This document shows, in pieces, positions 8,622 to 28,521 of a stretch of 64,000 nt of DNA. The notes below the pieces were generated by a model. It was not told where the DNA came from. It saw only the letters and a list, made by a program, of their open reading frames with translations, and ran no database searches. This DNA comes from Acidimicrobiaceae bacterium. Lineage in GTDB: Bacteria; Actinomycetota; Acidimicrobiia; Acidimicrobiales; RAAP-2. A program made the position numbers and the translations under genes. The stretch spans positions 107,467 to 171,466 of the forward strand of contig PKWY01000046.1 in the NCBI GenBank assembly GCA_003132205.1. Reading direction: 5' to 3'. Position 1 is the stretch's first letter; each line of letters opens with the position of its first letter.

Positions 8622-9056
8622 CGTCTGAATCAGGAGGCCCGGCGATCCGGTACGAACTTAAGCTGGCCTCGAGTCGCGTCATCGTTGGAAGGGATCGTGC
8701 TTGACCCATCCGCGATTGACGGTGTCGACTTCGAGACCTTCAATTTGCGTCATTTTCGTGTCATCGTGCCAAGTAGCTGCGTAAGCGTCTAAGAGCGGCG
8801 GAATGGCGCCGGTTGTCGATCCGTTCGATGTCGAGCGCCGGAGACGCTGTACAACGGATCCGCCACCATGCAATGGCGGTGACCCGGCAAGGCCCTGCTT
8901 GGTTGTGGATGGTCGTCGTCGACGATCTCCTACGGGCGATTGAACCAGTGACGATGACAGTTGGGTAAGAACAATTCCAGAAAATATCTTCAGAACTAGA
9001 TGACATCACCATGCGGCGAATCTCAAGTTACCGGTGATCGTCAGTCAGGCTTCATA
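8622..9056. other. Stretch without a supported gene, left flank of the TnpB unit
   Basis: A short minus-strand frame near 8679-8800 (LDAYAATWHDD, IEGLEVDTVN) could be a gene fragment, but it cannot be assigned. Nothing else stands out. Confidence 0.35.
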
Positions 9057-9130: not shown

Positions 9131-10471
9131 GTGACGAGACCTGCTAGCCCCACCACGCTGACCCGGGCCTACGCCTACGCCCTGGATCCCACTCCCGAGC
9201 AGGTCTCGTCACTGCGCAGCCACGTCGGTGGGTCACGGTTCGTCTACAACGCCCTGCTCGGACTCGTGAAGGCTAACTGGGATGAGAACCGCCAGAGGAA
9301 GGACGCCGGTGAGGAAGTCGCCAAAGAGGACTACCTCGGCACTCGGCACCTGGACCTGCAGAAGCTCTGGTACGAGAAGCGCGACGAGCTGGCCCCGTGG
9401 TGGCCCGAGAACGGATCGAGCACCTACAACTACGCCTGCCTGAACCTGTCGAAGGCCTTCACCAACTCGCGCGCCGGAAGGTCCAAGTTCCCCACCTTCA
9501 AGAAGCGCGGGTCGGTGAGCTCGGTGTCGTTCATGAGCACCGCCGTGCGTCTCGTTGACTCCCACCACCTTCGCATCAGCCGCGTCGGTGAGATCAAGAC
9601 CTACGAGTCCACCCGCAAGATGTACCGTCACATCGAGAGGGGCACCGGTCGGATTCTGGCCGCCACCACCTCCGAGCGGGGCGCCAAGTGGACCGTTTCG
9701 TTCACCGTCGAGGTGCAGCGTGCGCTCCCTCCGACCCGGGCTCCCGAGAGGGTCATCGGCGTGGACGTCGGGCTCTCCACCCTCTACACCGGGGCCACGC
9801 CTACGGGTGAGCACGTGCTCGACGTCGCCAATCCGCACCACTATGTTGCGGCCGAGAAGACGCTCACGTCAGCGCAACGCATTGCGTCGCGTCGCCAAGG
9901 TCCGCGCCGGGGCGTCGCTGCGTCCAACCGGTGGAAGCGGGCCCAGCAACGCGTCCAGAGAATCCACTCAGGCGTCGCCAACGCCCGTAGAAACCTGATC
10001 CACGAAACCACCATGAAGTTGGCGAAGAACTACGACCTCATCGTCGTGGAGGACCTGAACGTCATGGGGATGCTGAAGAACCACGCACTCGCCAAGCACA
10101 TCCAAGACGCCAGCTGGGGTGAGTTCGTGCGCCAGCTCGAGTACAAGACCAAGTGGTACGGATCGACGTTGGTGAAGGCCAACCGGTTCTACCCGTCATC
10201 GAAGACCTGTAGTCAGTGTGAGACGGTGAAAGCCAAGCTGTCTCTTGACGAACGGGTGTTCTGCTGTGAGGCCTGTGGCCTCACACTTGACCGCGATGTG
10301 AACGCGGCCATCAACCTGGCTCGGATGGGCCTGGCGGGGACAAACTCCGTCACTGGACGTGGAGGGGAGGTAAGTCCCGAGCAGCAGAAACTTGCGGCAA
10401 CGGCTCACCCCGACGAAGCGTCAACCGAACCGTCATCAGATGTCGACGGTGTAGGAGATACTTCGGTTTAG
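9131..10471 (+). CDS. tnpB: TnpB family RNA-guided nuclease (IS605 OrfB type)
   Basis: A 446-residue TnpB. The N-terminal OrfB domain is present (AYALDPTPEQ, then FVYNALL). The split RuvC-like active site is complete: Asp in GVDVG (about residue 212), Glu in VVEDLN (307) and Asp in the DRDVNAAINL segment (387-389). The zinc ribbon between them has CSQC (360-363) and CEAC (379-382). Intact catalytic and zinc residues imply an active nuclease, which in this family uses an omega RNA from the 3' end of its own gene. It starts with GTG and has no TnpA partner. The C-terminal tail after residue 400 is low in hydrophobic residues, as in relatives where it overlaps the RNA. Confidence 0.93.
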   Translation: MTRPASPTTLTRAYAYALDPTPEQVSSLRSHVGGSRFVYNALLGLVKANWDENRQRKDAGEEVAKEDYLGTRHLDLQKLWYEKRDELAPWWPENGSSTYNYACLNLSKAFTNSRAGRSKFPTFKKRGSVSSVSFMSTAVRLVDSHHLRISRVGEIKTYESTRKMYRHIERGTGRILAATTSERGAKWTVSFTVEVQRALPPTRAPERVIGVDVGLSTLYTGATPTGEHVLDVANPHHYVAAEKTLTSAQRIASRRQGPRRGVAASNRWKRAQQRVQRIHSGVANARRNLIHETTMKLAKNYDLIVVEDLNVMGMLKNHALAKHIQDASWGEFVRQLEYKTKWYGSTLVKANRFYPSSKTCSQCETVKAKLSLDERVFCCEACGLTLDRDVNAAINLARMGLAGTNSVTGRGGEVSPEQQKLAATAHPDEASTEPSSDVDGVGDTSV

Positions 10472-19325: not shown

Positions 19326-19388
19326 TGGTGTCGGAGGCGGGACTTGAACCCGCACGCCCCTAAGGGCACCAGCCCCTCAAGCTGGCGC
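19326..19388. repeat. Left attachment site (attL), 63 bp
   Basis: Identical to 28435-28497. It covers the CCA end, T-arm, variable arm and anticodon arm of the tRNA-Leu gene and stops after the anticodon stem. The rest of the tRNA is missing here, so this copy is not a functional gene. Confidence 0.95.
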
Positions 19389-19477
19389 AGGCCCTTTGCG
19401 ATATAGGCGAAAGTGCCTCTGATCTGGGATTTGACTAGTTAGCAGTTTGCACTATTTGACACTGTTTGTGAAAGTCT

Positions 19478-19507
19478 TGCGGACTTTTCGCGGACTTGGG
19501 GAGCGTC
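19478..19507. repeat. Candidate integrase arm site, left
   Basis: Thirty bases identical to 28358-28387. Each contains two copies of GCGGACTT (here 19479-19486 and 19490-19497) one helical turn (11 bp) apart. In the excised circle the two blocks would lie on opposite sides of the 63-base core, as arm-type sites do. Confidence 0.6.
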
Positions 19508-19608
19508 CCAACACCGGACTATTGGAAACGTCTACCTTCAGTCCAGGTGAATGGGGAAACTCTCAGGCGAGGAAGCCACCAGTCGAGCTCTCGGGCTCGG
19601 CGACTGAC

Positions 19609-19639
19609 GAGGCGCGGCGGTAATGAACCGTCGCGCCTC
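19609..19639. terminator. Hairpin after the leftward operon
   Basis: GAGGCGCGGCGG (19609-19620) pairs with CCGTCGCGCCTC (19628-19639) with one wobble pair and a seven-base loop. It is the likely terminator of the satellite's long operon, about 170 bases beyond its last gene. Confidence 0.5.
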
Positions 19640-19806
19640 TTCGGTTCTAGGTAGGTTCACCCTCTTGAGGCCTTCACGACGCTCGCTGTGTGGCGATTCT
19701 CGGCACTCTTTCAGGTGGAGTGGGATCACCCGTATGGCTCAAACAGCGACGACGTTAGACCTCACGCGGAGGGCGATGGCCCTTGATCGAATTCACAGCG
19801 ACTGCG

Positions 19807-20136
19807 CTACTGTGCGTCGATCTGGTCCGCGAGAGTTTCGAGTGCCCTCGCCAACTCGCGAGCGCTGTTCGCAGTGAATCCAAGATCAGCAAACTTGATG
19901 ACAACGCCGACCCGCTCGGGCTTGAAGTCGCCGTCGTCATTCAGCACCGTTTGAGAAAGACAGACCTCGGCCTTGGCGAAATCCCTGTTGTGGTGCACTT
20001 GCTGTGTCGCTATATCGATCGGGTGCCCTTCGTGAGTGAAGGAATGCCAGGAGTTGGCTTCAAACTCGCGCTCGTGCATGGCGCCAGTGACGCACCATTC
20101 CGGGCATGGGTGGTCGTCAGGCGATTCGGTAGTCAT
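19807..20136 (-). CDS. Small hypothetical protein with a CPEWC motif
   Basis: A 109-residue protein, last gene of the leftward operon and four bases beyond the terminase gene. It starts with DHPCPEWCVTGAMHEREFEA, followed by HSFTHEGHPIDIA and an even beta pattern, and ends in a helix (SARELARALETLADQIDA). The C-P-x-W-C and His spacing followed by a final SAREL helix resembles the DUF6907-type proteins common in actinobacteria and their phages. That link is from memory of the pattern. The Cys and His residues could bind a metal. Function unknown. Confidence 0.7.
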   Translation of the reverse strand: MTTESPDDHPCPEWCVTGAMHEREFEANSWHSFTHEGHPIDIATQQVHHNRDFAKAEVCLSQTVLNDDGDFKPERVGVVIKFADLGFTANSARELARALETLADQIDAQ

Positions 20137-20140
20137 GCTC

Positions 20141-21790
20141 TCAGTCCATCACAAGGATGCGACCTTTGCTGGCCGTGCCTTTTCCCGCACTAGGTAGCTT
20201 GGCGATCGCGTCGAGTCGAGCAGCCCACGCCAGGGTTGCGGCGACCGCGCAGTCAATCTTCCTCGGGCTGTCGGGGTATTCCTTACTGATCTGTAGCCCC
20301 GAGCGTGAGACGTTGCGGCGCGCATTCAAAATGTGCTCGGTCAAGCGGTACGACCCGTCGTGTGTCATGTCACCGTTGCTGACGGCCTCCTCGAAGGCGG
20401 CCAACGCGCGGACCATGATCGAAGCGCGGTTCGCCCAAAAGTGTGTAGCGTGGTCATGGCTCGCTTTGACTTTCAAGCGACGTGAGAAAGCCGCTTCCCA
20501 GGTGCCGAGCTGCGATTGCCACTGTGACGGGTCCGCGTAAAAGCCGACAACGCGAAAACGCTTAAACGCGTCTCTGACTGCGGCGTCGACGAGGGCCTCG
20601 GGAACCTCCCAGGTGTCCTCATCTTCTCGCGCCTGCCAGCACCCTAAGAGCTCAACATGGCCATCCTTCACGCGCACGGCGACCAGGGCGGTGGCGTCAG
20701 CGTTGCCGCGCGCGCGACCTCGCGAGCCATCGAATCCCAGCGTGATCGTGTCGCCCTCGACGAGCGGCTTGGATCGATCGAGGCAACCGTGCCACTGGTC
20801 TCCACGGATCCATGCATCATCAGCTGAGGCCGCCTGATTCAAGTAATACCTTCTCGCGTCGCTCGGATGAGTGCCCCCGTCGAGGACTTCGGCCGCGAGA
20901 CGATCAACGTCGATCCAAGGGCTGTCTGCGTAGAGCTCGGCGAGAGCGGCGCGGAGCTCTACAGGGTCGCCCAGGTCCTCGCAATGCCCGATCGGGTGCC
21001 ACGTGAGCACACCGTCGCCCGCGTGAGTGCCAGCGCGAACGGCTTCCGCGTACGTGTGCGTCGACTCGGCAACGGACCCGGCGCCCGCGATCCACATATT
21101 CGACGTTTCGAGGCTTCGTCCACCTGTCTTGGCCACACCCCGTCGCAACGTCTCAGCGAGGCGGTGCCCCCCATTCGACGCGATCCACAAGTGCGACTCG
21201 TCGAGCACTACCGCCGTAGGACGGAGACCCTCTTTCGACGGAGCGCGGGCCGTTGACGAGGTTAACTTTCCGACGCGCGTTCGAATGCGAGTGAGACCCG
21301 CGTCGAGGCCGGGAATCGCCGCCAGGGCGGTGACGTTTTCCAACATCGCGATCGCCAGACTCATCGTCGCATCCTCTGCCTGGTCTTGTGAGAGAGCGGA
21401 CAGCTTCACATCTGGCGAAGGGTGCGAGCGCATGACGGGTTCACCGTCGTCGGCCCACTCGACGAAACGAACCGGGCCCGCGAGCTCACAGCACGCGAGC
21501 GCGGCCGCCATCGGCGACTTACCCGCGCCCTTTGGCAACACGATCTGACCACGGCGCCAGATGTACTGACCGTCGTCGTCGAGGGAGTACCACCAGCTCA
21601 CGAAACGCGCTTGCGACTCGCGCCAGCGCCACGGTTGACCCGCGTCGTCGCCGTCTGGCTGCGCGAGCACGACCTCTGACCATGCGAGCACGCCAGGACC
21701 GGCAGAGCGCACGTCTTGATCGTGAGGCCAGCCGACCGGCAGGCCGTCGTCAGACCATTCGAGGTGGGCGAGAATGTCGGCGGCGCTCAC
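20141..21790 (-). CDS. terL: Phage terminase large subunit
   Basis: A 549-residue packaging ATPase/nuclease. Walker A is VLPKGAGKS (about 84-92), Walker B is TAVVLDESHLW (about 192-202), and a C-terminal RuvC-like nuclease begins with TLGFDGSRG and continues with DATALVAV. The length and motifs are those of complete tailed-phage terminases. The frame is open far upstream, but the GTG at 21790 overlaps the TerS stop (GTGA) and gives the correct N-terminus. It would cut and pump DNA into a prohead, but no prohead gene is present, so it must act with a helper phage's portal or have been co-opted. Confidence 0.9.
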   Translation of the reverse strand: MSAADILAHLEWSDDGLPVGWPHDQDVRSAGPGVLAWSEVVLAQPDGDDAGQPWRWRESQARFVSWWYSLDDDGQYIWRRGQIVLPKGAGKSPMAAALACCELAGPVRFVEWADDGEPVMRSHPSPDVKLSALSQDQAEDATMSLAIAMLENVTALAAIPGLDAGLTRIRTRVGKLTSSTARAPSKEGLRPTAVVLDESHLWIASNGGHRLAETLRRGVAKTGGRSLETSNMWIAGAGSVAESTHTYAEAVRAGTHAGDGVLTWHPIGHCEDLGDPVELRAALAELYADSPWIDVDRLAAEVLDGGTHPSDARRYYLNQAASADDAWIRGDQWHGCLDRSKPLVEGDTITLGFDGSRGRARGNADATALVAVRVKDGHVELLGCWQAREDEDTWEVPEALVDAAVRDAFKRFRVVGFYADPSQWQSQLGTWEAAFSRRLKVKASHDHATHFWANRASIMVRALAAFEEAVSNGDMTHDGSYRLTEHILNARRNVSRSGLQISKEYPDSPRKIDCAVAATLAWAARLDAIAKLPSAGKGTASKGRILVMD

Positions 21791-22164
21791 GCTTTGCGAT
21801 CCCAACGGGCCCGCGCGAGGCCGATCGCGGACACCGTGGCTGCGCGTGAGGCGTCGACGGCGGACGTGTCGGTGTCGGCCAGTGAGAGACCTCGTAGGAG
21901 CGTCGACAGTGTGGCCCTGTGTGCGCGCAGTTCTGAGATCAGAGGATGGATCACCTCTTGCCCCATCGAACCTCGCGTCGTTCGGGGCACGTCTTTCAAG
22001 GCCGCCTGTAGGTCGTCGATCAAATCGCATTCGTGGCACGCGTCCTGCAAAATTCGCGCGTGGTCGGGGCGTAAGACGTGATTTTTGGTTACCTCGCGCC
22101 ACAGAGCGCGGCCGCCTGCGGCCAGTCCTTTCGGTGCGGCGGGCGATTTCTTAACTGGGGCCAT
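21787..22164 (-). CDS. terS: Phage terminase small subunit (P27-like)
   Basis: A 125-residue protein upstream of and overlapping terL. The N-terminal basic segment (MAPVKKSPAAPKGLAAGGRA) and the LWREVTKNHVLRPDHARILQ helix pair are typical of the P27 family of small terminase subunits, followed by the helices ACHECDLIDDLQAAL and LISELRAHRATLSTLLRGLS. TerS recognises the packaging start on DNA and hands it to TerL. In satellites a TerS of their own lets the island's DNA be chosen instead of the helper's. Its start overlaps the end of the preceding frame by 14 bases. Confidence 0.8.
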   Translation of the reverse strand: MAPVKKSPAAPKGLAAGGRALWREVTKNHVLRPDHARILQDACHECDLIDDLQAALKDVPRTTRGSMGQEVIHPLISELRAHRATLSTLLRGLSLADTDTSAVDASRAATVSAIGLARARWDRKA

Positions 22165-22447
22165 ATTTCACCTGACCTCGAAAACGGACGGCGATGCGCA
22201 TCGACAGCGACCGGCTACACGGTACGGGACGGACAGAGGCACCCAGGGGGTCAAGAGGGGCCACGTCGACGCGGCCGGTCGCGTATGGGCGGCCACCAGG
22301 GCGACGCCGTGCCGGTCGTGGTGCCACTGAGGGCCGCCCCTCGATGTCGATGTCGATGTCGCCGCCGGCGACGCCCCACCCCGTCGAGTCGAGTGACGAA
22401 GTGCGGCACTGCGTCATGATCTTCGAGGTGTCCATCACTGCGATCAT
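22151..22447 (-). CDS. Hypothetical protein coupled to recT and terS
   Basis: A 98-residue frame that begins in the stop codon of recT (TGATG) and ends 13 bases inside terS. It is rich in Arg and Pro (ARRRPGGRPYATGRVDV) and contains a DIDIDIEG repeat from a CGATGT tandem tract. I recognise no domain. The frame fills exactly what would be the only large gap in an otherwise gapless operon, and that is the main argument for it being real. Codon composition looks less regular than in its neighbours, so it may be poorly conserved. Confidence 0.4.
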   Translation of the reverse strand: MIAVMDTSKIMTQCRTSSLDSTGWGVAGGDIDIDIEGRPSVAPRPARRRPGGRPYATGRVDVAPLDPLGASVRPVPCSRSLSMRIAVRFRGQVKYGPS

Positions 22448-23607
22448 CAGTGGACCTCACTCGTCGCGGCGTCCTCGTCCAGTCGGTCGATGACCGTGTG
22501 GGCTTCATCCTTCGTGAGCGCGTTCATCGAGTCGAGTGGCCGGTCGATGATGGCGCTCACGTAGTCGTGTCGGTCAACCTGAGCGACGCCGGCCATCGTG
22601 AGCATCGTTTGAATCTTCGTGACTTGGAACTTCGTCGCGAGTGGTGCATCGACTTCACTCGATGACGCCGTGTCGACGGCCGTCGTGGTGTCTGTCGTCG
22701 TGTCTGAAGGTTCGACGACCTCGGCCTCGACAACGTCGCCTCCAACAGCGTTGAGAACATCCAAGATGATCTGCATCGCATCCTCTGCCTGGTCTGACGT
22801 GAGACCTCGGGAAAGCGACGGCAGACCCGCTGCGATCCACGCGGTCTTGACGGTCGCCTTGTCACCCGCTTCGAGCAGTCCCAGCGACGTTGAGATGGCG
22901 TAGAGCTGATCGTCAGTCGCGGCCACGCCGGTCTCTTCGGTCGGTGTGGAGTGCGTCGTCGTCGATCGAGACGATGACCTGGTTGGTGCGGCCGCTGGCG
23001 GCGTGAACGACATGACCTCTTCGGGCGTGTACGACATGCCCGCGACGACATCCGAGAACATCATGCGAGCGATTCGACTGGTGGCGCGAGCCAACAGAAG
23101 GTCCTTTGTGTACTTCTCCCACGGCAGCGCCTTGCCTTGCTGAGAGCGAGCGCGAACCTTCCCCGTCGCGTCAACCGTACACAGGTCGGCATTGACGGCG
23201 TCGTCGATGGTGAAGTCAGTCTCACCTACTTCACCCGTGTCGCCGCGCTCGGCAACGATGATGCACTCGGTTCGCGTTGATTTGATGTTCAACTTGTGAC
23301 CAGCCTGTCGAATCAAGGCGCGCATCAGTTCGGGAGCCATCGACGGTTTGCCCTCAATGAAGTTCACCTGCTGCATTGCCTGCATTGGGCCTATTCCGAG
23401 CTCTGCCCCGTACATGACGACCGCCAGAACCTCGGCGGGTCGATTGCGCAGTGCGCTCGGCACCATCGCTGTCTTGCTGATTGCTTCGGCCAACTCCATG
23501 TACTCGTGCAAGTGAGGTATGCCCCCAAGGGCACGAGCGCCCGCGTGGTTGACGGCCGGAAGATTCGCGACCTCGACGACGGTTGCTTCGATCACTTCGT
23601 CGCTCAT
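22447..23607 (-). CDS. recT: RecT-family single-strand annealing protein
   Basis: A 386-residue protein. The first 200 residues have the RecT pattern: EYMELAEAISKTAMVPSALR, then EVLAVVMYGAELGIGPMQAM with QQVNFIEGKP, SMAPELMRALIRQAG, and LPWEKYTKDLLLARATSRIA. These proteins anneal complementary single strands in phage recombination and replication. After a Ser/Thr-rich linker the C-terminus carries two similar modules of about 50 residues (DDQLYAISTSLGLLEAG and FQVTKIQTMLTMAGVAQ, each ending in an LT-x-(D/E)-(Q/E)-A helix). The start overlaps the preceding stop by four bases. No RecE-type exonuclease is adjacent. Confidence 0.85.
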   Translation of the reverse strand: MSDEVIEATVVEVANLPAVNHAGARALGGIPHLHEYMELAEAISKTAMVPSALRNRPAEVLAVVMYGAELGIGPMQAMQQVNFIEGKPSMAPELMRALIRQAGHKLNIKSTRTECIIVAERGDTGEVGETDFTIDDAVNADLCTVDATGKVRARSQQGKALPWEKYTKDLLLARATSRIARMMFSDVVAGMSYTPEEVMSFTPPAAAPTRSSSRSTTTHSTPTEETGVAATDDQLYAISTSLGLLEAGDKATVKTAWIAAGLPSLSRGLTSDQAEDAMQIILDVLNAVGGDVVEAEVVEPSDTTTDTTTAVDTASSSEVDAPLATKFQVTKIQTMLTMAGVAQVDRHDYVSAIIDRPLDSMNALTKDEAHTVIDRLDEDAATSEVH

Positions 23608-24128
23608 TTCACTTTGGCCGCTGCAACGCCACCGGCGTTCTGGCCGCGCTCGGCGACCTCAGTGGCTGCGATACGGTGCGCAATTGAGGCACGACCCGCG
23701 AGGATCCGCTCGCAAACTTCAGCAAAGGTCAAATCAACAAGGCCGCCGGTTACAACGACGCGCGATTGATTGACGTTGTTGAGCTGCACGGTCGCTGCCA
23801 CGAACGAAGCGTGCAGCGTTTTCAGCGTCGAAAACTTCACGAACAATTCTTCGATCCCAGCGTCGGAATCGGCGGCAGAAGCTTTGAACGCCAGATCAGC
23901 GTTCTCGTACGATTCGCCGCATTTGATCCGCGACGCTTCGATGCTGGCCTTCACCGCTTCATCGTACGCATCGTCGCGACGTTGCTGGAGGTCGCGAGCC
24001 GCGAGCTCTTCGTCGGTTGGCACGGCATCGAGGACAGCCTGGGCCCTCGCCTGTTCGTCATCGATTCTTTCGGCTTCAAAACGTGCAATTCGCGCCGTCT
24101 CGATTTCTACAAGTCCCAGTGGTTCCAT
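23604..24128 (-). CDS. Hypothetical helical protein
   Basis: A 174-residue, mostly helical acidic protein (ETARIARFEAERIDDEQARA, DEELAARDLQQRRDDAYDEA) with probable coiled-coil stretches in the first 80 residues. The C-terminal part, VNQSRVVVTGGLVDLTFAEV followed by CERILAGR, is less charged. It lies between the 170-residue gene and recT, overlapping recT by four bases. I do not recognise the family. Its position beside recT suggests a role in satellite DNA metabolism, but there is no direct evidence. Confidence 0.65.
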   Translation of the reverse strand: MEPLGLVEIETARIARFEAERIDDEQARAQAVLDAVPTDEELAARDLQQRRDDAYDEAVKASIEASRIKCGESYENADLAFKASAADSDAGIEELFVKFSTLKTLHASFVAATVQLNNVNQSRVVVTGGLVDLTFAEVCERILAGRASIAHRIAATEVAERGQNAGGVAAAKVK

Positions 24129-24156
24129 TGTTTCCTTCTTTCGTTGATTGGTTGGT

Positions 24157-24669
24157 TCAGTTGACCGGGTGGCCAGTTGCAGGGTCTACCGTCGGCAACT
24201 TCGAAAGTTGAGCGGCGATTCGTTGAGCGGGTGTCAGCGGCTTCGAGGGCGTGACGACCACTGAGCCGGAGCCGCCTTGGGCGGGTTTTGGCCGCATGCC
24301 AGGCCGCGGGATCGCGAGTCCTGGGTTCGCTGTAACGGCGTCGTTGATGGCGGCTTCGAGGGCCGCTATGTCGCCTGCCTCGATCGACCCCAGGGCTTTC
24401 ACGAAGCGGTTGCTGTCCACCAGTGCGGTCAGGTCAACCCCGAGAGCGGTGGTGGCCGTTCGAAGCGCCTCAGCCATCGAGGGAGACTGCCCCTCAACGA
24501 CGGGTGATTCCACAACCGCTGTCACAGTCGGATCGGGCCCGGCGAGGTCGCGCCCATCCTTGTCGACGCGCGGAATTCCACGAAGTTTTGCCTGAATCGC
24601 CGCCCTCGTGTTTTGCACCATTGTCGCGTCCTCGACGAACGATGTTGGACGGCTGATGTTGCTGCTCAT
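24157..24669 (-). CDS. Hypothetical protein
   Basis: A 170-residue protein with a Pro/Ala-rich character and two repeated helix-like parts (MAEALRTATTALGVDLTALV, GDIAALEAAINDAVTANPGL). It ends with a basic linker and LTPAQRIAAQLSKLPTVDPA. No enzyme motif or membrane segment is seen. It follows the 55-residue gene by a single base after the stop (TGACATG) and precedes the next gene by 28 bases, so it belongs to the same operon. Function unknown. Confidence 0.6.
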   Translation of the reverse strand: MSSNISRPTSFVEDATMVQNTRAAIQAKLRGIPRVDKDGRDLAGPDPTVTAVVESPVVEGQSPSMAEALRTATTALGVDLTALVDSNRFVKALGSIEAGDIAALEAAINDAVTANPGLAIPRPGMRPKPAQGGSGSVVVTPSKPLTPAQRIAAQLSKLPTVDPATGHPVN

Positions 24670-24670
24670 G

Positions 24671-24838
24671 TCAGTTTCTCTTCCCTGGGGGTTTGGTGTT
24701 AGTGAGTCGGTGAGTCGAGGCAGGGCCGGTCGGCCTTGGGCGCCTCAGGGCTCCTTTGACGCTCGCCTCGATGGCGGAGCGCAGGCCGACGACGCGAGGA
24801 ACGCGCTGGCCCTGCCTCGAAACTTGTGACGCGCTCAT
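24671..24838 (-). CDS. Small basic protein (55 residues)
   Basis: This frame begins in the stop codon of the replication gene (TGATG) and ends one base before the next ATG, so it fits the operon exactly. The product, MSASQVSRQGQRVPRVVGLR followed by a short helix and a basic Pro-rich tail, is strongly positive and could bind nucleic acid. No family is recognised. The overlaps on both sides are the main support. Confidence 0.5.
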   Translation of the reverse strand: MSASQVSRQGQRVPRVVGLRSAIEASVKGALRRPRPTGPASTHRLTNTKPPGKRN

Positions 24839-25965
24839 CAGCGCACGACCTCGCAGTTGCCGCGAAATTGCTCGGCAATCTCGGCGCTCAGAATGCGGTT
24901 CGTGTCGTCGTCGCCGGCCGGCGAGTCGGGGGCATCGGTGCGCGCTTCTGGCTCACGTAAAGGGCCACCTTTGTGTGCGATCGCGCGAAGTGCAACCTTC
25001 AGGTCGTAGCTCTTCATTCTGGCGACCTTGGCCTCCGAGAGGTCGGCGATCGCGGAGCGCGCCAGTGAAGGCAGCACCGAAATGTCACGTGGCGCTGAAG
25101 TTAGGTAGAAGTCGCCCAGGGCGCCGCTCGCCTCTTCGACGAGCTGGTCGACGTTGCCGCGCGACTTCGTGGCATTCGCGAGGCCCGCGCCACCTGGCAG
25201 ATAGTCCTTCCATGTCCCATCGCGAAAGAAATTCTCAGCGATCTTGGTGAACTGATGATCCTTGCCTTCACGACAGCGCGCGTAGGTCTGCGTCGCGAGC
25301 AGCACCTCGTCAAAGGGCGCTCCAGATTCGAGTAGTGCCTCGACGGCGCGCAGGCCAGCGACCTTGCGCTCTGATCGAGGGTAGATCTCCAACAACGACG
25401 CGACCAAGACGGAGCGAGGTTGCGGCGGCGCTTCAGCGTCAGCGGGCGACGGTGACGTGAGTTCACTTCTCTTCTCTTCACTTCTCTTCTCTTCACTTCT
25501 CTTAGGTTCAGCAGACACTTCAGCACTTGCTAAAGGGTCTGCTTCAGCAAGTGCTTCAACAGATGCTGAAGCACTTGCTTCAATGTTTGCCTGAGTATCA
25601 GGCTTCGGCTTCCGCGCCTCCCACGATTTTCGCCCTCCGCGCTCGCCCGCCTTGATCTTGGCCTCGCGCATCTTCTCAATGTCCGCGCTGGACTTATTCC
25701 ACTTCAGGAAACTCTCGATTGTGAAGGTGCCGTCGTCATTGCGGGCCCACAGTCCATTCGCGACGAGCTCGTCGACGAGAGGCGTCACATCATCGACCTT
25801 GTAGCACTCGCGCTTCACCTGTAGCAAGGTGAGGTGTCCATCGCTCTCGATCCGCTTCGCGACGCGCAGACCGGCCAGGTAGACCCACTCAGCGCCCATG
25901 CTGAGTGCCTCGATGCGAGGATCGTCTGAGAAGTGCACGTCGACGGCGACGAAGAGCTTGCTCAT
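24838..25965 (-). CDS. Replication initiation/organiser protein with winged-helix N-terminus
   Basis: A 375-residue protein. The N-terminal part (AVDVHFSDDPRIEALSMGAE, then LTLLQVKRECYKVDDVTPLV and DELVANGLW) is the winged helix seen in phage replisome organisers, with FTIESFLKWN closing it. A Lys/Arg-rich segment (ERGGRKSWEARKPK) and a low-complexity acidic linker follow; the C-terminal half is helical with no helicase motif. The DNA of the linker contains an iteron-like array, so the origin may lie inside the gene, as in lambda O. It overlaps the xis gene by four bases. Confidence 0.65.
   Translation of the reverse strand: MSKLFVAVDVHFSDDPRIEALSMGAEWVYLAGLRVAKRIESDGHLTLLQVKRECYKVDDVTPLVDELVANGLWARNDDGTFTIESFLKWNKSSADIEKMREAKIKAGERGGRKSWEARKPKPDTQANIEASASASVEALAEADPLASAEVSAEPKRSEEKRSEEKRSELTSPSPADAEAPPQPRSVLVASLLEIYPRSERKVAGLRAVEALLESGAPFDEVLLATQTYARCREGKDHQFTKIAENFFRDGTWKDYLPGGAGLANATKSRGNVDQLVEEASGALGDFYLTSAPRDISVLPSLARSAIADLSEAKVARMKSYDLKVALRAIAHKGGPLREPEARTDAPDSPAGDDDTNRILSAEIAEQFRGNCEVVR
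25462..25506. repeat. 15-bp tandem repeat in the replication gene
   Basis: The unit TTCACTTCTCTTCTC occurs at 25462 and 25477 and, with its last three bases changed, at 25492. One strand is pure purine for long runs, a feature of unwinding regions near origins. It encodes the SEEKRSEEKR linker. Confidence 0.7.
25522..25579. other. Iteron-like array, candidate replication origin
   Basis: Three ten-base sites lie at exact 24-base intervals: AGCACTTGCT at 25522, its reverse complement AGCAAGTGCT at 25546, and AGCACTTGCT at 25570. The last two share TGAAGCACTTGCT. Equal spacing plus the neighbouring purine-rich repeat make an origin bound by the encoded protein plausible. It is an inference from pattern. 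Confidence 0.5.
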
Positions 25966-26141
25966 TGAGCCACGGCCCAGGCGTTGACCTCGGTGAGCCG
26001 GTAGCGGAGATGGCGCCCGATCTTATGGGCCGGTGGGCCGACCTTGCGATATTTCCACGCGTAGATCGTCTCGACGGGAATCGCAAACATTGCGGCCAAC
26101 TCCACAGGGGTAAGCCAGGGATCGCTTGTCACGGTGGTCAT
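25962..26141 (-). CDS. AlpA/Xis-type excisionase with MerR-like helix-turn-helix
   Basis: A 59-residue protein: MTTVTSDPWLTPVELAAMFA, then IPVETIYAWKYRKVGPPAHK and IGRHLRYRLTEVNAWAV. The L-T-P-x-E-L-A start, the (T/E)IYxWK recognition helix and the G-x-x-L-R-Y-R wing are those of helix-turn-helix excisionases and AlpA regulators. Both ends overlap their neighbours by four bases. In islands of the PICI type such a gene directs excision and/or turns on the integration genes, which fits its place straight after the regulator. Confidence 0.85.
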   Translation of the reverse strand: MTTVTSDPWLTPVELAAMFAIPVETIYAWKYRKVGPPAHKIGRHLRYRLTEVNAWAVAQ

Positions 26142-26401
26142 TGCTGCATCTCCATCGTCGCGGCCAGCGCTGCGATCACGGTCCAGTATCGAACTGCGTG
26201 CTCACCGGTCGGCTCGCGCCGCCCGCGCTCCCATTGGCAGACCGACGACTTCGAAACGCCGCACGCTCGGCCGATTTCCGACAACGACGCACCTACCGCC
26301 AGGCGAACGCGTCGCCCGGTTCCGTCACGAGCGACTTGTCGCGCCGCAGTCAGCCTGATCAATACTTGTCCGTCGTCTAGGTGCTCGCCGTCGATATCCA
26401 T
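26138..26401 (-). CDS. Cro/CI-type (XRE) helix-turn-helix regulator
   Basis: An 87-residue protein. The HTH is ASLSEIGRACGVSKSSVCQW followed by ERGRREP, a textbook XRE motif (about residues 38-63). The protein is too short for an added protease or dimerisation domain, so it resembles Cro more than CI. It opens the leftward operon and faces the rightward integrase operon across a region with four similar palindromes. It probably regulates both. Confidence 0.85.
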   Translation of the reverse strand: MDIDGEHLDDGQVLIRLTAARQVARDGTGRRVRLAVGASLSEIGRACGVSKSSVCQWERGRREPTGEHAVRYWTVIAALAATMEMQQ

Positions 26402-26416
26402 TTGGCCAAGGTAGTG

Positions 26417-26515
26417 GTTTAGTCAACGTTCCGACGGCGTTTACTAATCACTCTTCTCAATCGTGAGATTGGATTTAGGAAACCCTGAGAGTTGTCACCC
26501 AATCGTTTACCAAAC
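26417..26515. promoter_or_regulatory. Divergent control region with four operator-like palindromes
   Basis: Four 11-base sites fit GTTT-N3-AAAC: GTTTAGTCAAC (26417), GTTTACTAATC (26439), ATTTAGGAAAC (26473) and the perfect GTTTACCAAAC (26505). All contain TTTA. They fill the 131-base gap between the HTH gene and the GTG start of the rightward operon, where a regulator of both promoters would bind. Confidence 0.6.
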
Positions 26516-26532
26516 GTGTTAACCTCTGTCGC

Positions 26533-27273
26533 GTGGAGATCATTAATCGCGACGGAGGAAGGTGGCCCGATCCAGAATTAGGGCCGTTCAATCTCTGGAC
26601 GACCTTCGCAATTGTTGACGGGCGCGCTGAGGTCGTAGGCGTCGAACTCTGGGCCGTCGATCCAGCTTCGTTGGAGAAGCGCGTGACGCATCTATCGAAG
26701 GCTCAAGCTCGGGAACACTGGCCGCGTCTTGACGATCCTGAATGGGATTCCCGAGAAGGCGTGATTCGATCAAACGACCTTCGACTACCACTCGGCAGGA
26801 TTGTTACCGACTACATGGAACGCCAACGCCGCCTCGCGCGGGCTGACCAGCACCCGGACTTCAAAGAGAAGGTTTTGAACGACGCCAAGCGATTTGGGCT
26901 CGTGTCGCCGGACTACAAGCCACTTCCAACAAATCCGAAACGCCAAGAGGCAACGCGGCGAATTCTCGAACTTGAAGATGACTCAGCGCCCAGAAAGCCT
27001 GGGCGACCGTCGCTGCCGTTGAGCGAATACTTGAGGGTGGCCGAAATCTATGTGCGCGCGTGCGAGAACAGATTGGACCCACTGCAAGAAATTTCGAACT
27101 TCGCTGAGAAGGAAATGTCGAAATCAAGTGCGGGAAAGATGATCTTTAAGTGCCGCAATGTGTATGGGTTGCTCACTAAGACAACGCGTGGTCGGTCCGG
27201 CGGAACTCTGACCGAGAAAGCGCTTCAACTGAGAAACGAAATCGATGCATCGAAATCAAAGGGGGAAAACTGA
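26533..27273 (+). CDS. Hypothetical protein linked to the integrase
   Basis: A 246-residue protein starting with GTG. The first half (INRDGGRWPDPELGPFNLWT, then VVGVELWAVDP) is beta-rich, and the second half has a helical region, SLPLSEYLRVAEIYVRACEN, then NFAEKEMSKSSAGKMIFKCR and YGLLTKTTRGRSGGTLTEKA, that could be a DNA-binding helix-turn-helix. Its stop overlaps the integrase ATG (TGATG). In phage islands this place is often taken by the master repressor (Stl-like), which is an attractive but unproven reading. Confidence 0.6.
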   Translation: MEIINRDGGRWPDPELGPFNLWTTFAIVDGRAEVVGVELWAVDPASLEKRVTHLSKAQAREHWPRLDDPEWDSREGVIRSNDLRLPLGRIVTDYMERQRRLARADQHPDFKEKVLNDAKRFGLVSPDYKPLPTNPKRQEATRRILELEDDSAPRKPGRPSLPLSEYLRVAEIYVRACENRLDPLQEISNFAEKEMSKSSAGKMIFKCRNVYGLLTKTTRGRSGGTLTEKALQLRNEIDASKSKGEN

Positions 27274-28418
27274 TGGCCACGACACCAGGCGTCAAGAAGC
27301 GAGGGGCAAAGTGGCAGGCAACCTATCGAGGCCCTGACGGACGTGAGCGCACGCGTTCATTCACACTGAAGGGCGATGCCAAGAAGTGGATCGAGGACGA
27401 ACGCTCCAAGATCAATCGCGGCGCGTGGATCGACGCGCGCTCAGGGCGCGCCACATTGCGCGAGTTTGCAGACCCCTGGTTGGATCGTCAACTTAATCTG
27501 GCGGTCAGGACGAAAGAGCTCTACAGGTATCTTCTCGACAAGCACACGCTGCCAACGTTCGGCGAAACGTCACTCGGCGCGTTGCGTCCGTCGATGATCG
27601 AAGCGTGGCACGGTCAACTCGCGCAAGCTCACCCGAGCACTGCGGCGAAGAGTTACCGGCTTCTGAGTCAGATAATGCGCGCGGCCGTCCGCGACAAATT
27701 GATCCACGAGAGCCCGTGCCAGTTGCCCGGTGGCGGAAAGGAAAGCGCCGCTGAGCGCCCTGTCGCCTCGATCGCGGAGGTTGACGCGATCGCCGGTGCG
27801 ATGCCCGCGCACCTACAGCTCGCTGTACTGCTCGCCGCCTGGTGCCAGTTACGACGTGGTGAGCTGCTAGGGCTACGTCGTCGAGACGTTGATCTGCTCC
27901 ACGCCACCGTTACCGTCGCCGTCACCCGCGTCAAGATGATGAGCGGCGAGATGATCGACAAGGCGCCGAAGTCCGACGCGGGCGTGCGAACGCTGGCCGT
28001 ACCGCCTCACGTGGTCCCAATCCTTGTTGAGCACCTGGAGCGGTTCGTCGAGATCGATGCCAGCGCACTGGTGTTCACGGGGCTGCTTGGCGAGCCATTG
28101 CGGGTCCGCCAACTCGACGGCGCGTGGCAAAGGGCACGAGCGACGATTGGCCGGAGCGACCTCCACTTTCACGATCTACGCCACTCGGGCTTGACCTGGA
28201 GCGCCGCTACGGGCGCCACCGTGGCGGAGCTGATGCGACGGGCCGGTCACGCCTCGCCCACTGCCGCACTTCGCTACCAGCACGCCACCGAGGACCGCGA
28301 CCGAGTGCTCGCTGATGCCCTTTCGGAACTCGTACCGCTTGCAAAAGTTTTGCGGCCTGCGGACTTTTCGCGGACTTGGGGAGCGTCTGACGACGCGGCC
28401 GCGAGGGAAGCGCTCTGA
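27273..28418 (+). CDS. int: Tyrosine-type site-specific integrase
   Basis: A 381-residue phage integrase. It has an N-terminal arm-binding part (KWQATYRGPDGRERTRSFTL), a core-binding SAM-like domain (about 60-150) and the catalytic domain. Catalytic residues are Arg194 in LRRGELLGL, His300 and Arg303 in HFHDLRHSG, His326 in RRAGHASP and Tyr335 in ALRYQHAT. It ends 16 bases before the tRNA-Leu gene it uses as target. The last 20 codons contain one of the candidate arm sites, so gene end and attachment site overlap. Confidence 0.95.
   Translation: MATTPGVKKRGAKWQATYRGPDGRERTRSFTLKGDAKKWIEDERSKINRGAWIDARSGRATLREFADPWLDRQLNLAVRTKELYRYLLDKHTLPTFGETSLGALRPSMIEAWHGQLAQAHPSTAAKSYRLLSQIMRAAVRDKLIHESPCQLPGGGKESAAERPVASIAEVDAIAGAMPAHLQLAVLLAAWCQLRRGELLGLRRRDVDLLHATVTVAVTRVKMMSGEMIDKAPKSDAGVRTLAVPPHVVPILVEHLERFVEIDASALVFTGLLGEPLRVRQLDGAWQRARATIGRSDLHFHDLRHSGLTWSAATGATVAELMRRAGHASPTAALRYQHATEDRDRVLADALSELVPLAKVLRPADFSRTWGASDDAAAREAL
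28358..28387. repeat. Candidate integrase arm site, right
   Basis: Identical to 19478-19507 and located inside the integrase reading frame, 47 bases from the att core. Two GCGGACTT copies lie 11 bases apart. Confidence 0.6.
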
Positions 28419-28434
28419 AAGCGCAATGATTCAT

Positions 28435-28521
28435 TGGTGTCGGAGGCGGGACTTGAACCCGCACGCCCCTAAGGGCACCAGCCCCTCAAGCTGGCGCGTC
28501 TGCCTATTCCGCCACTCCGAC
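28435..28521 (-). tRNA. tRNA-Leu(GAG), also attR of the element
   Basis: An 87-base class II tRNA with acceptor GTCGGAG/CTCCGAC, discriminator A and encoded CCA. The anticodon loop is TTGAGGG, anticodon GAG, so it reads CUC/CUU. It has a long variable arm and a T-loop with TTCAAGTC. The integrated element restores the 3' end, so the tRNA remains intact. Its last 63 bases equal attL. Confidence 0.95.

Follow-up and report, generated by a model that had tools for sequence, protein, structure and literature searches.

Can an integrative element that carries both subunits of a phage terminase, and in which no gene of a phage shell is found, be a satellite with a packaging motor of its own, or is it what a decaying prophage has left behind? 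The question is raised by a 9.1-kb element at positions 19326-28497 of a 64,000-nucleotide stretch of an Acidimicrobiaceae genome (contig PKWY01000046.1; G000:C36:107467-171466 in our numbering), and we refer to this whole stretch as the window. The host is a metagenome-assembled genome (MAG) of 2.89 Mb in 60 contigs, and the isolate names of its relatives (fen_670, palsa_745, Chersky) read as peat and permafrost sites. Our answer, to which we give a probability of about two in three, is that the element is an intact-looking phage satellite, one of a small Acidimicrobiales family that would package itself into helper procapsids by means of its own small and large terminase subunits (TerS and TerL).

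Terminase selection and search for virion genes

In order to estimate selection on the genes of the element, we compared the window with an element at the same tRNA gene in a sister species (G050) by the Nei-Gojobori count of nonsynonymous (dN) and synonymous (dS) differences. The two TerL proteins are 92% identical and their DNA 82% identical, with dN 0.066, dS 0.96, a ratio of 0.07 and a synonymous proportion of 0.54. A terminase of no use would not be expected to keep such identities, and with this ratio TerL has been kept functional, under purifying selection, since the two terL genes split. The constraint speaks for function over that time, of which packaging would be the proposed kind. 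Part of the constraint could predate the element if terL was re-acquired from phages. The most likely start of TerL is the GTG at 21790 (549 amino acids, aa; 4-nt GTGA overlap with the TerS stop) rather than the start of the 653-aa open reading frame (ORF). The ratios of the other genes were 0.10 (Xis), 0.19 (p170), 0.23 (p174), 0.24 (int), 0.35 (RecT) and 0.41 (HTH, the helix-turn-helix regulator); synonymous differences were saturated in TerS (58% aa identity in this pair) and p246, and hence no ratio is given for these two. None of the 11 ORFs in the window element is interrupted.

We then searched the element with 15 queries for virion proteins, which covered portal, protease, capsid, adaptor, major tail, tail chaperone and tape measure as well as three phage genes that carry no label and follow a capsid gene. 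Nothing was found at E 0.1 among the 199 six-frame ORFs (at least 30 aa) of the window element or among the 210 ORFs of the G050 element, and among the 285 ORFs of a third relative, G060, only the tape-measure query matched, to itself. No lysis gene was found in a PHROG scan of 10 of the 11 ORFs, no dedicated lysis query having been run. These searches thus found none of the head, tail and lysis modules of a complete prophage. The original prediction had reported virion and lysis genes as missing, which holds for portal, capsid and tail and, for lysis, extends as far as the PHROG scan. It had also held that the element needs only the portal and head of a helper; this was too narrow, as the searches found no tail or lysis genes and a scaffold-like protein may come from the element itself.

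Ends, insertion site and gene order

The element is flanked by identical 63-bp repeats, its longest exact direct repeat, which correspond to the 3' part of the tRNA-Leu(GAG) gene at 28435-28521 (minus strand); the predicted attachment (att) sites at this tRNA were thus confirmed. The second-longest exact direct repeat, absent from that prediction, is a 30-mer starting at 19478 and 28358, which lies 90 bp inward of the left att copy and 48 bp inward of the right one and holds two spaced copies of CGGACTT. We regard this pair inside both ends as putative integrase arm sites. The features of the element are as follows.

19326-19388, unstranded: left att repeat, 63 bp, exact repeat, copy of the tRNA-Leu 3' part
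19478-19507, unstranded: putative integrase arm site at the terminase end, 30 bp, identical to 28358-28387; a separate 29-bp pair occupies the equivalent positions in the sister element
19807-20136, minus: DUF6907 protein, 109 aa (PF21848 1.3e-8); no tblastn match in the sister element (locus L010)
20141-21790, minus: TerL, large terminase subunit, 549 aa from the inferred GTG start at 21790 (phrog_9 1.8e-56; dN/dS 0.069 against G050)
21787-22164, minus: TerS, small terminase subunit, 125 aa (phrog_1496 1.5e-21)
22165-22446, minus: RecT-TerS intergenic region, 282 nt, candidate packaging site, with blocks conserved in G050
22447-23607, minus: RecT-like annealing protein, 386 aa (phrog_4171 9.4e-39)
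23604-24128, minus: p174, unassigned protein, conserved in G050 (65%) and in L021
24157-24669, minus: p170, with a head-scaffold-like segment at residues 75-120 (phrog_22063 6e-7; hhalign 91.8%, E 7e-7)
24838-25965, minus: Rep, replication initiation protein, 375 aa (phrog_3926 6.2e-16)
25962-26141, minus: Xis/AlpA-like small HTH protein, 59 aa (HTH_17 1.2e-9)
26138-26401, minus: HTH_3 regulator of 87 aa, transcribed divergently from the int operon (HTH_3 5.8e-7)
26533-27273, plus: p246, 246 aa, candidate regulator coupled to int, with homologues in G050 and G060; C-terminal HTH seen by eye only
27273-28418, plus: tyrosine integrase, 381 aa (PF00589 2.2e-16)
28358-28387, unstranded: putative integrase arm site at the integrase end, 30 bp, identical to 19478-19507
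28435-28497, unstranded: right att repeat within tRNA-Leu(GAG) (28435-28521, minus), from the 63-bp exact repeat and the tRNA call

Read from the tRNA end, int and p246 on the plus strand, which have one base in common (27273), are followed on the minus strand by the divergent HTH_3 gene and then by the Xis-like HTH_17, Rep, p170, p174, RecT, TerS, TerL and DUF6907 genes. Profile matches in Pfam and PHROG agree with the identities first proposed for integrase, HTH, Xis, Rep, RecT, TerS and TerL, and four genes can be added to these: DUF6907 (19807-20136), p174, p170 and the 246-aa gene coupled to int. The statement that most neighbouring genes overlap was generous, since 4-nt overlaps are found at four of the eight junctions of the leftward operon and gaps (4, 28, 168 and 282 nt) at the other four. 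No family matched p246 at E 0.01, and its predicted structure (pLDDT 44.3) was too poor to use. No primase match was seen among the element proteins, Rep (phrog_3926) being the replication function. Scans of IMG/VR gave no relatives of p174, only loci at 20-22% identity for the integrase and only loci at 30-42% for RecT.

The gene to the right of the element is present in 92 of 99 genomes of the genus. Nineteen of these flanks were fetched and, with the short fetches L090, L092, L097 and L099 omitted, 15 were scanned for tRNAs; tRNA-Leu(GAG) adjoins the right-flank gene in 14. In one of the 19, G101, 1.2 kb separates the left-flank gene (79%) from the tRNA and no element of this kind intervenes, which approximates an empty site. 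The left chromosomal part of the window has a lower G+C than the right part and contains a TnpB/Cas12f-like protein (9131-10471; OrfB_IS605 9e-22, TNB domain 2e-24).

Sister element and other relatives

The G050 element (PMLJ01000014) is 9.5 kb long, with att copies at 8940 and 18470 (to 18532) of locus L010. Its right flank is 94.5% identical to that of the window over 1.5 kb and collinear at 95.2% over the next 20 kb, and its left flank 91% identical over 356 bp. Protein identities by tblastn are 92% for TerL, 82% for p170, 78% for HTH, 65% for int, p174 and RecT, 63% for Xis, 60% for TerS and 48% for p246; in place of Rep, G050 has a region that encodes a DUF3631 protein (PF12307 3.6e-55). 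The arm repeats of G050 are a different but similar 29-mer at corresponding places. Arm repeats that match within each element and differ between the two, together with integrases 65% identical, would be expected of co-evolving integrase arm sites. The gene order of G050 is inverted relative to the tRNA and the 63-bp core keeps the tRNA direction in both elements, so the core of attP must have the opposite orientation to int and the arm sites in one of them as compared with the other. The finding named beforehand as fatal to a satellite, a longer relative at the same tRNA with structural genes, was sought; the G050 relative is no longer than a short element of this type, and the structural-gene queries found nothing in it. 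A recent single deletion is weakened by this sister element, and a phage origin still has room because of G060. Between its left flank and the element, G050 has an extra 8.6 kb (L010 356-8939) that is absent from the window, with genes that look non-phage by ORF reading and, at L010 5033, a 33-of-63 match to the tRNA end.

At 1e-10, TerL was found in 4 of the 99 genus genomes: the window genome, G050, G060 and, as a fragment with a stop, G104. The G060 element (PLXU01000114) is about 14.5 kb long, lies at tRNA-Val(UAC) and is bounded by an att-like repeat (93% over 45 nt, with two N in one copy). It has homologues of int (25%), p246, HTH, Rep, RecT and TerS, and a TerL homologue that is divided between two frames; within the part searched, the portal and capsid queries gave no match. 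A 98-aa ORF beside its TerL was considered as DUF6907-like and dropped, as it has no Pfam match. A 3.6-kb contig from another Acidimicrobiales MAG (L021) carries, in this order, p170-like, p174-like, TerS and TerL genes, and its sequence stops 107 bp past TerL; by gene order, the short plan recurs among relatives. In G104 the TerL C-terminal fragment with its internal stop (L043 4661-5180) adjoins tRNA-Val(CAC) and is a probable relic of a relative. In G081, which belongs to a different family of the order, a tRNA-Leu(GAG) is occupied by HTH, p246-like and int genes next to helicase and primase-like genes (L113 4900-8922), and no match to the window TerL was found on this 11.7-kb contig; from its genes, this is the same regulatory and integration module with another load. 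A 5.8-kb contig of G061 was left unclassified.

Phage relatives and candidate packaging site

The closest phage TerL, at 77%, is that of L023 (IMG/VR contig 3300025679_000082), whose TerS is 65% identical and whose portal (phrog_104 4e-134) directly follows TerL. With this portal as the single query, a portal was found behind TerL in 5 of 19 further IMG/VR loci (L024-L028 of L024-L042) and in two of the four Acidimicrobiales prophage TerL loci examined (G361, G238:C208). The query had no match in the other 14 IMG/VR loci, in G211 or in G238:C185, where other portal types or cut-short loci may account for this.

The TerL tree unites the window, G050, G060, L021 and L023 in a single clade (100/100), in which the window groups with G050 (100/99) and these two with G060 (81/83). 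The placement of L021 and L023 in this tree is unsettled, and monophyly of the satellites is left unsupported. The TerS tree conflicts with it, placing G050 with G060 apart from the window (95/92). From this conflict TerS looks exchanged, as if packaging specificity had been swapped and the motor kept.

The 282-nt region between RecT and TerS (22165-22446) shares with G050 blocks of 54 nt at 87%, 58 nt at 86% and 21 nt at 100%, and is a candidate pac or cos site or regulator. A packaging site common to phage L023 or to L021 was rejected, since matches were of 8-14 nt only, likewise with G060. The G050 copy of the region has an inverted repeat of 14 bp or longer.

A protein with a scaffold-like segment

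The profiles phrog_22063 and phrog_8952 match p170 (6e-7 and 1e-6) and its G050 copy (1.5e-7 and 2e-7). Both families are unnamed, and they are matched at 8e-56 and 1e-55 by gp7 of Streptomyces phage Vondra, which is annotated as a scaffolding protein and encoded directly upstream of the major capsid gene. Aligned by hhalign to seven such phage scaffolds, p170 gave 91.8% (E 7e-7, 46% identity over 46 residues), and the control p174 gave 0.05%. A motif RPxPxQG after the segment recurs near the end of the L027 phage scaffold (phrog_1793 4.5e-16), and the remaining ORFs with this motif look, by eye, like non-coding frames. In 25 related phage and prophage loci the phage-scaffold profile had one weak match (E 0.004) and two at 0.06. 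The CpmB protein of SaPI1 has the capsid-binding end of its helper's scaffold and shrinks the shell (PMC6893505). By analogy, p170 is possibly a CpmB-like capsid-redirecting factor, an uncertain lead.

Proposed cycle and alternative explanations

In the cycle that we propose, the HTH protein, p246 or both would keep the element silent until an infecting siphovirus-like helper lifts the silencing. Int and Xis would then excise the element, and Rep, helped by RecT, would amplify it. TerS would mark the element's own DNA, perhaps at the conserved region before terS, and the element's TerL would dock on the helper portal and fill helper procapsids, for which p170 may act as an alternative scaffold that fits the shell to a genome of 9 kb; the particle would be completed by the tails and lysis functions of the helper.

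Several observations weigh against a satellite of this kind. What weighs most is the small size of the family, together with a relative that has the look of a half-lost prophage. The sets searched contain just two intact short copies, one of the four TerL carriers being fragmentary and one split, and G060 adds an HNH gene (2e-24), a tape measure (5e-46) and, weakly, a tail-chaperone match (7e-4). Because this longer form keeps tail genes without head genes, descent from a siphophage is indicated, and an origin by loss of phage head genes is likely. The element is known from assembled MAG sequence alone. HNH genes often stand beside terminases of this kind, and no HNH family was seen among 10 ORFs in the Pfam and PHROG scans. 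Portals of family phrog_104, the only one searched, were not found in the host genome and occur in 2 of the 99 genus genomes, both weak (G060, G045); a resident helper of another type is possible because only this family was searched. For p170, plain tblastn gave scaffold likeness at E 0.2 only, the L021 homologue is without the 46-aa segment, the p170 profile had no match in the 25 loci, IMG/VR gave no relatives, and the predicted structure was of low confidence (pLDDT 55.7), too poor to use. In the MAG of G060, a different phage-like stretch (L102, G060:C47) has the weak phrog_104 match and very long structural-looking ORFs.

The alternative that survives best, which we consider unlikely, is a prophage remnant: a siphophage lost everything from portal through tail, and the rest is decaying and immobile. 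The HNH, tail-chaperone and tape-measure matches behind the two-frame TerL of G060, without head genes, look like a stepwise deletion series, G104 retains only a TerL fragment with a stop beside its tRNA, and the nearest phage terminase is only 23% different. Against decay, however, stand the open ORFs, the TerL ratio of 0.07 across a deep divergence and that of 0.24 in int, the exact att and arm repeats, the divergence in step of arm sites and integrase between the two short elements, and the exchange of the replication gene with the capsid-less plan unchanged. The original prediction denied that this was a prophage that lost its middle; G060 suggests that the lineage began so, although the short form has since persisted.

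We think it improbable that the element moves without phage particles, or by generalized transduction only, and uses TerS and TerL for another purpose, such as competing for phage portals. In its favour, the element has no known helper, a terminase encoded by a satellite could deprive a phage of its portals, and G081 has a similar HTH-p246-int module at the same tRNA with no TerL match; yet both subunits are kept together with RecT and the candidate packaging region, TerS would be needless for portal blocking alone, and no defence family matched the four element proteins scanned. A misassembled or wrongly binned piece of phage, conceivable as the host genome is a MAG, is very improbable, since in the sister MAG a different, diverged element is found in this arrangement between matching flanks, the right one collinear for 20 kb at 95%.

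If the element is a satellite with its own motor, the contact between TerL and portal, usually within one phage, would be common to satellite and helper and would offer a natural test of motor-portal compatibility, and the range of phage satellites would come to include peat and permafrost Acidimicrobiales. How satellites evolve from phages can also be studied on the two paired elements, which differ in replication gene and orientation and between which TerS looks swapped.

Comparison with known systems

Phage-inducible chromosomal islands (PICIs) carry int, divergent regulators, a primase or Rep and sometimes TerS, and TerL is outside the set described (PMC6092414). In the PICI plan the master repressor lies on the int side, an origin follows the primase or replication initiator, and induction and packaging depend on a phage. 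The element resembles PICIs, including the Staphylococcus aureus pathogenicity islands (SaPIs), in the integrase at one end, the specific tRNA-type att site, a putative pair of divergent regulators, Rep, TerS and the absence of tail genes and, if p170 is read correctly, in a possible scaffold-type redirecting factor such as CpmB. Unlike those with terS only, which take the motor from a helper, it adds a TerL under purifying selection, and no primase gene was recognised; the likeness is one of gene plan, known from genes alone. The earlier label PICI-like therefore stands for the plan and not for membership, and we rejected filing the element as a full PICI because of TerL, keeping the comparison as one of how it may work.

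Capsid-forming PICIs also have TerS and TerL in a small integrative element, but in these, as in Streptomyces satellites, the terminase comes with portal and capsid (PMC10690885). Capsid-forming PICIs are described with portal, protease, major capsid protein, connectors and HNH (PMC10690885). None of these was found here, by the 15 queries on 199 ORFs and the PHROG scan or, for HNH, among 10 ORFs. MulchRoom and MiniFlayer, satellites of Streptomyces phages, are likewise actinobacterial with TerS, TerL and scaffold, but encode portal and capsid and are without recognisable replicases (PMC10690885). L023 is similar in its terminase (TerL 77%, TerS 65%) and differs in being a phage, with a portal after TerL. 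The G060 element shares homologues from int to TerL, and differs in its 14.5 kb, HNH, tape measure, weak tail-chaperone match, split TerL and an integrase only 25% identical. P4-like satellites have P4-type replication and capsid genes; no P4-like names occur among the PHROG and NCBIfam matches of the element, no separate P4 model search having been made.

We found no description of a satellite with both terminase subunits and no capsid genes in the portions seen of the open-licence PubMed Central literature, which is not proof of absence. Whether such elements follow a third packaging strategy, between TerS-only and capsid-forming, in which a motor-bearing satellite combines a whole terminase and a scaffold mimic with a foreign portal and possibly a resized shell, is in our view evenly balanced. 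We place the element among phage satellites, as a variant in its own right and outside the PICIs; with a whole terminase and no shell, it falls between the known kinds.

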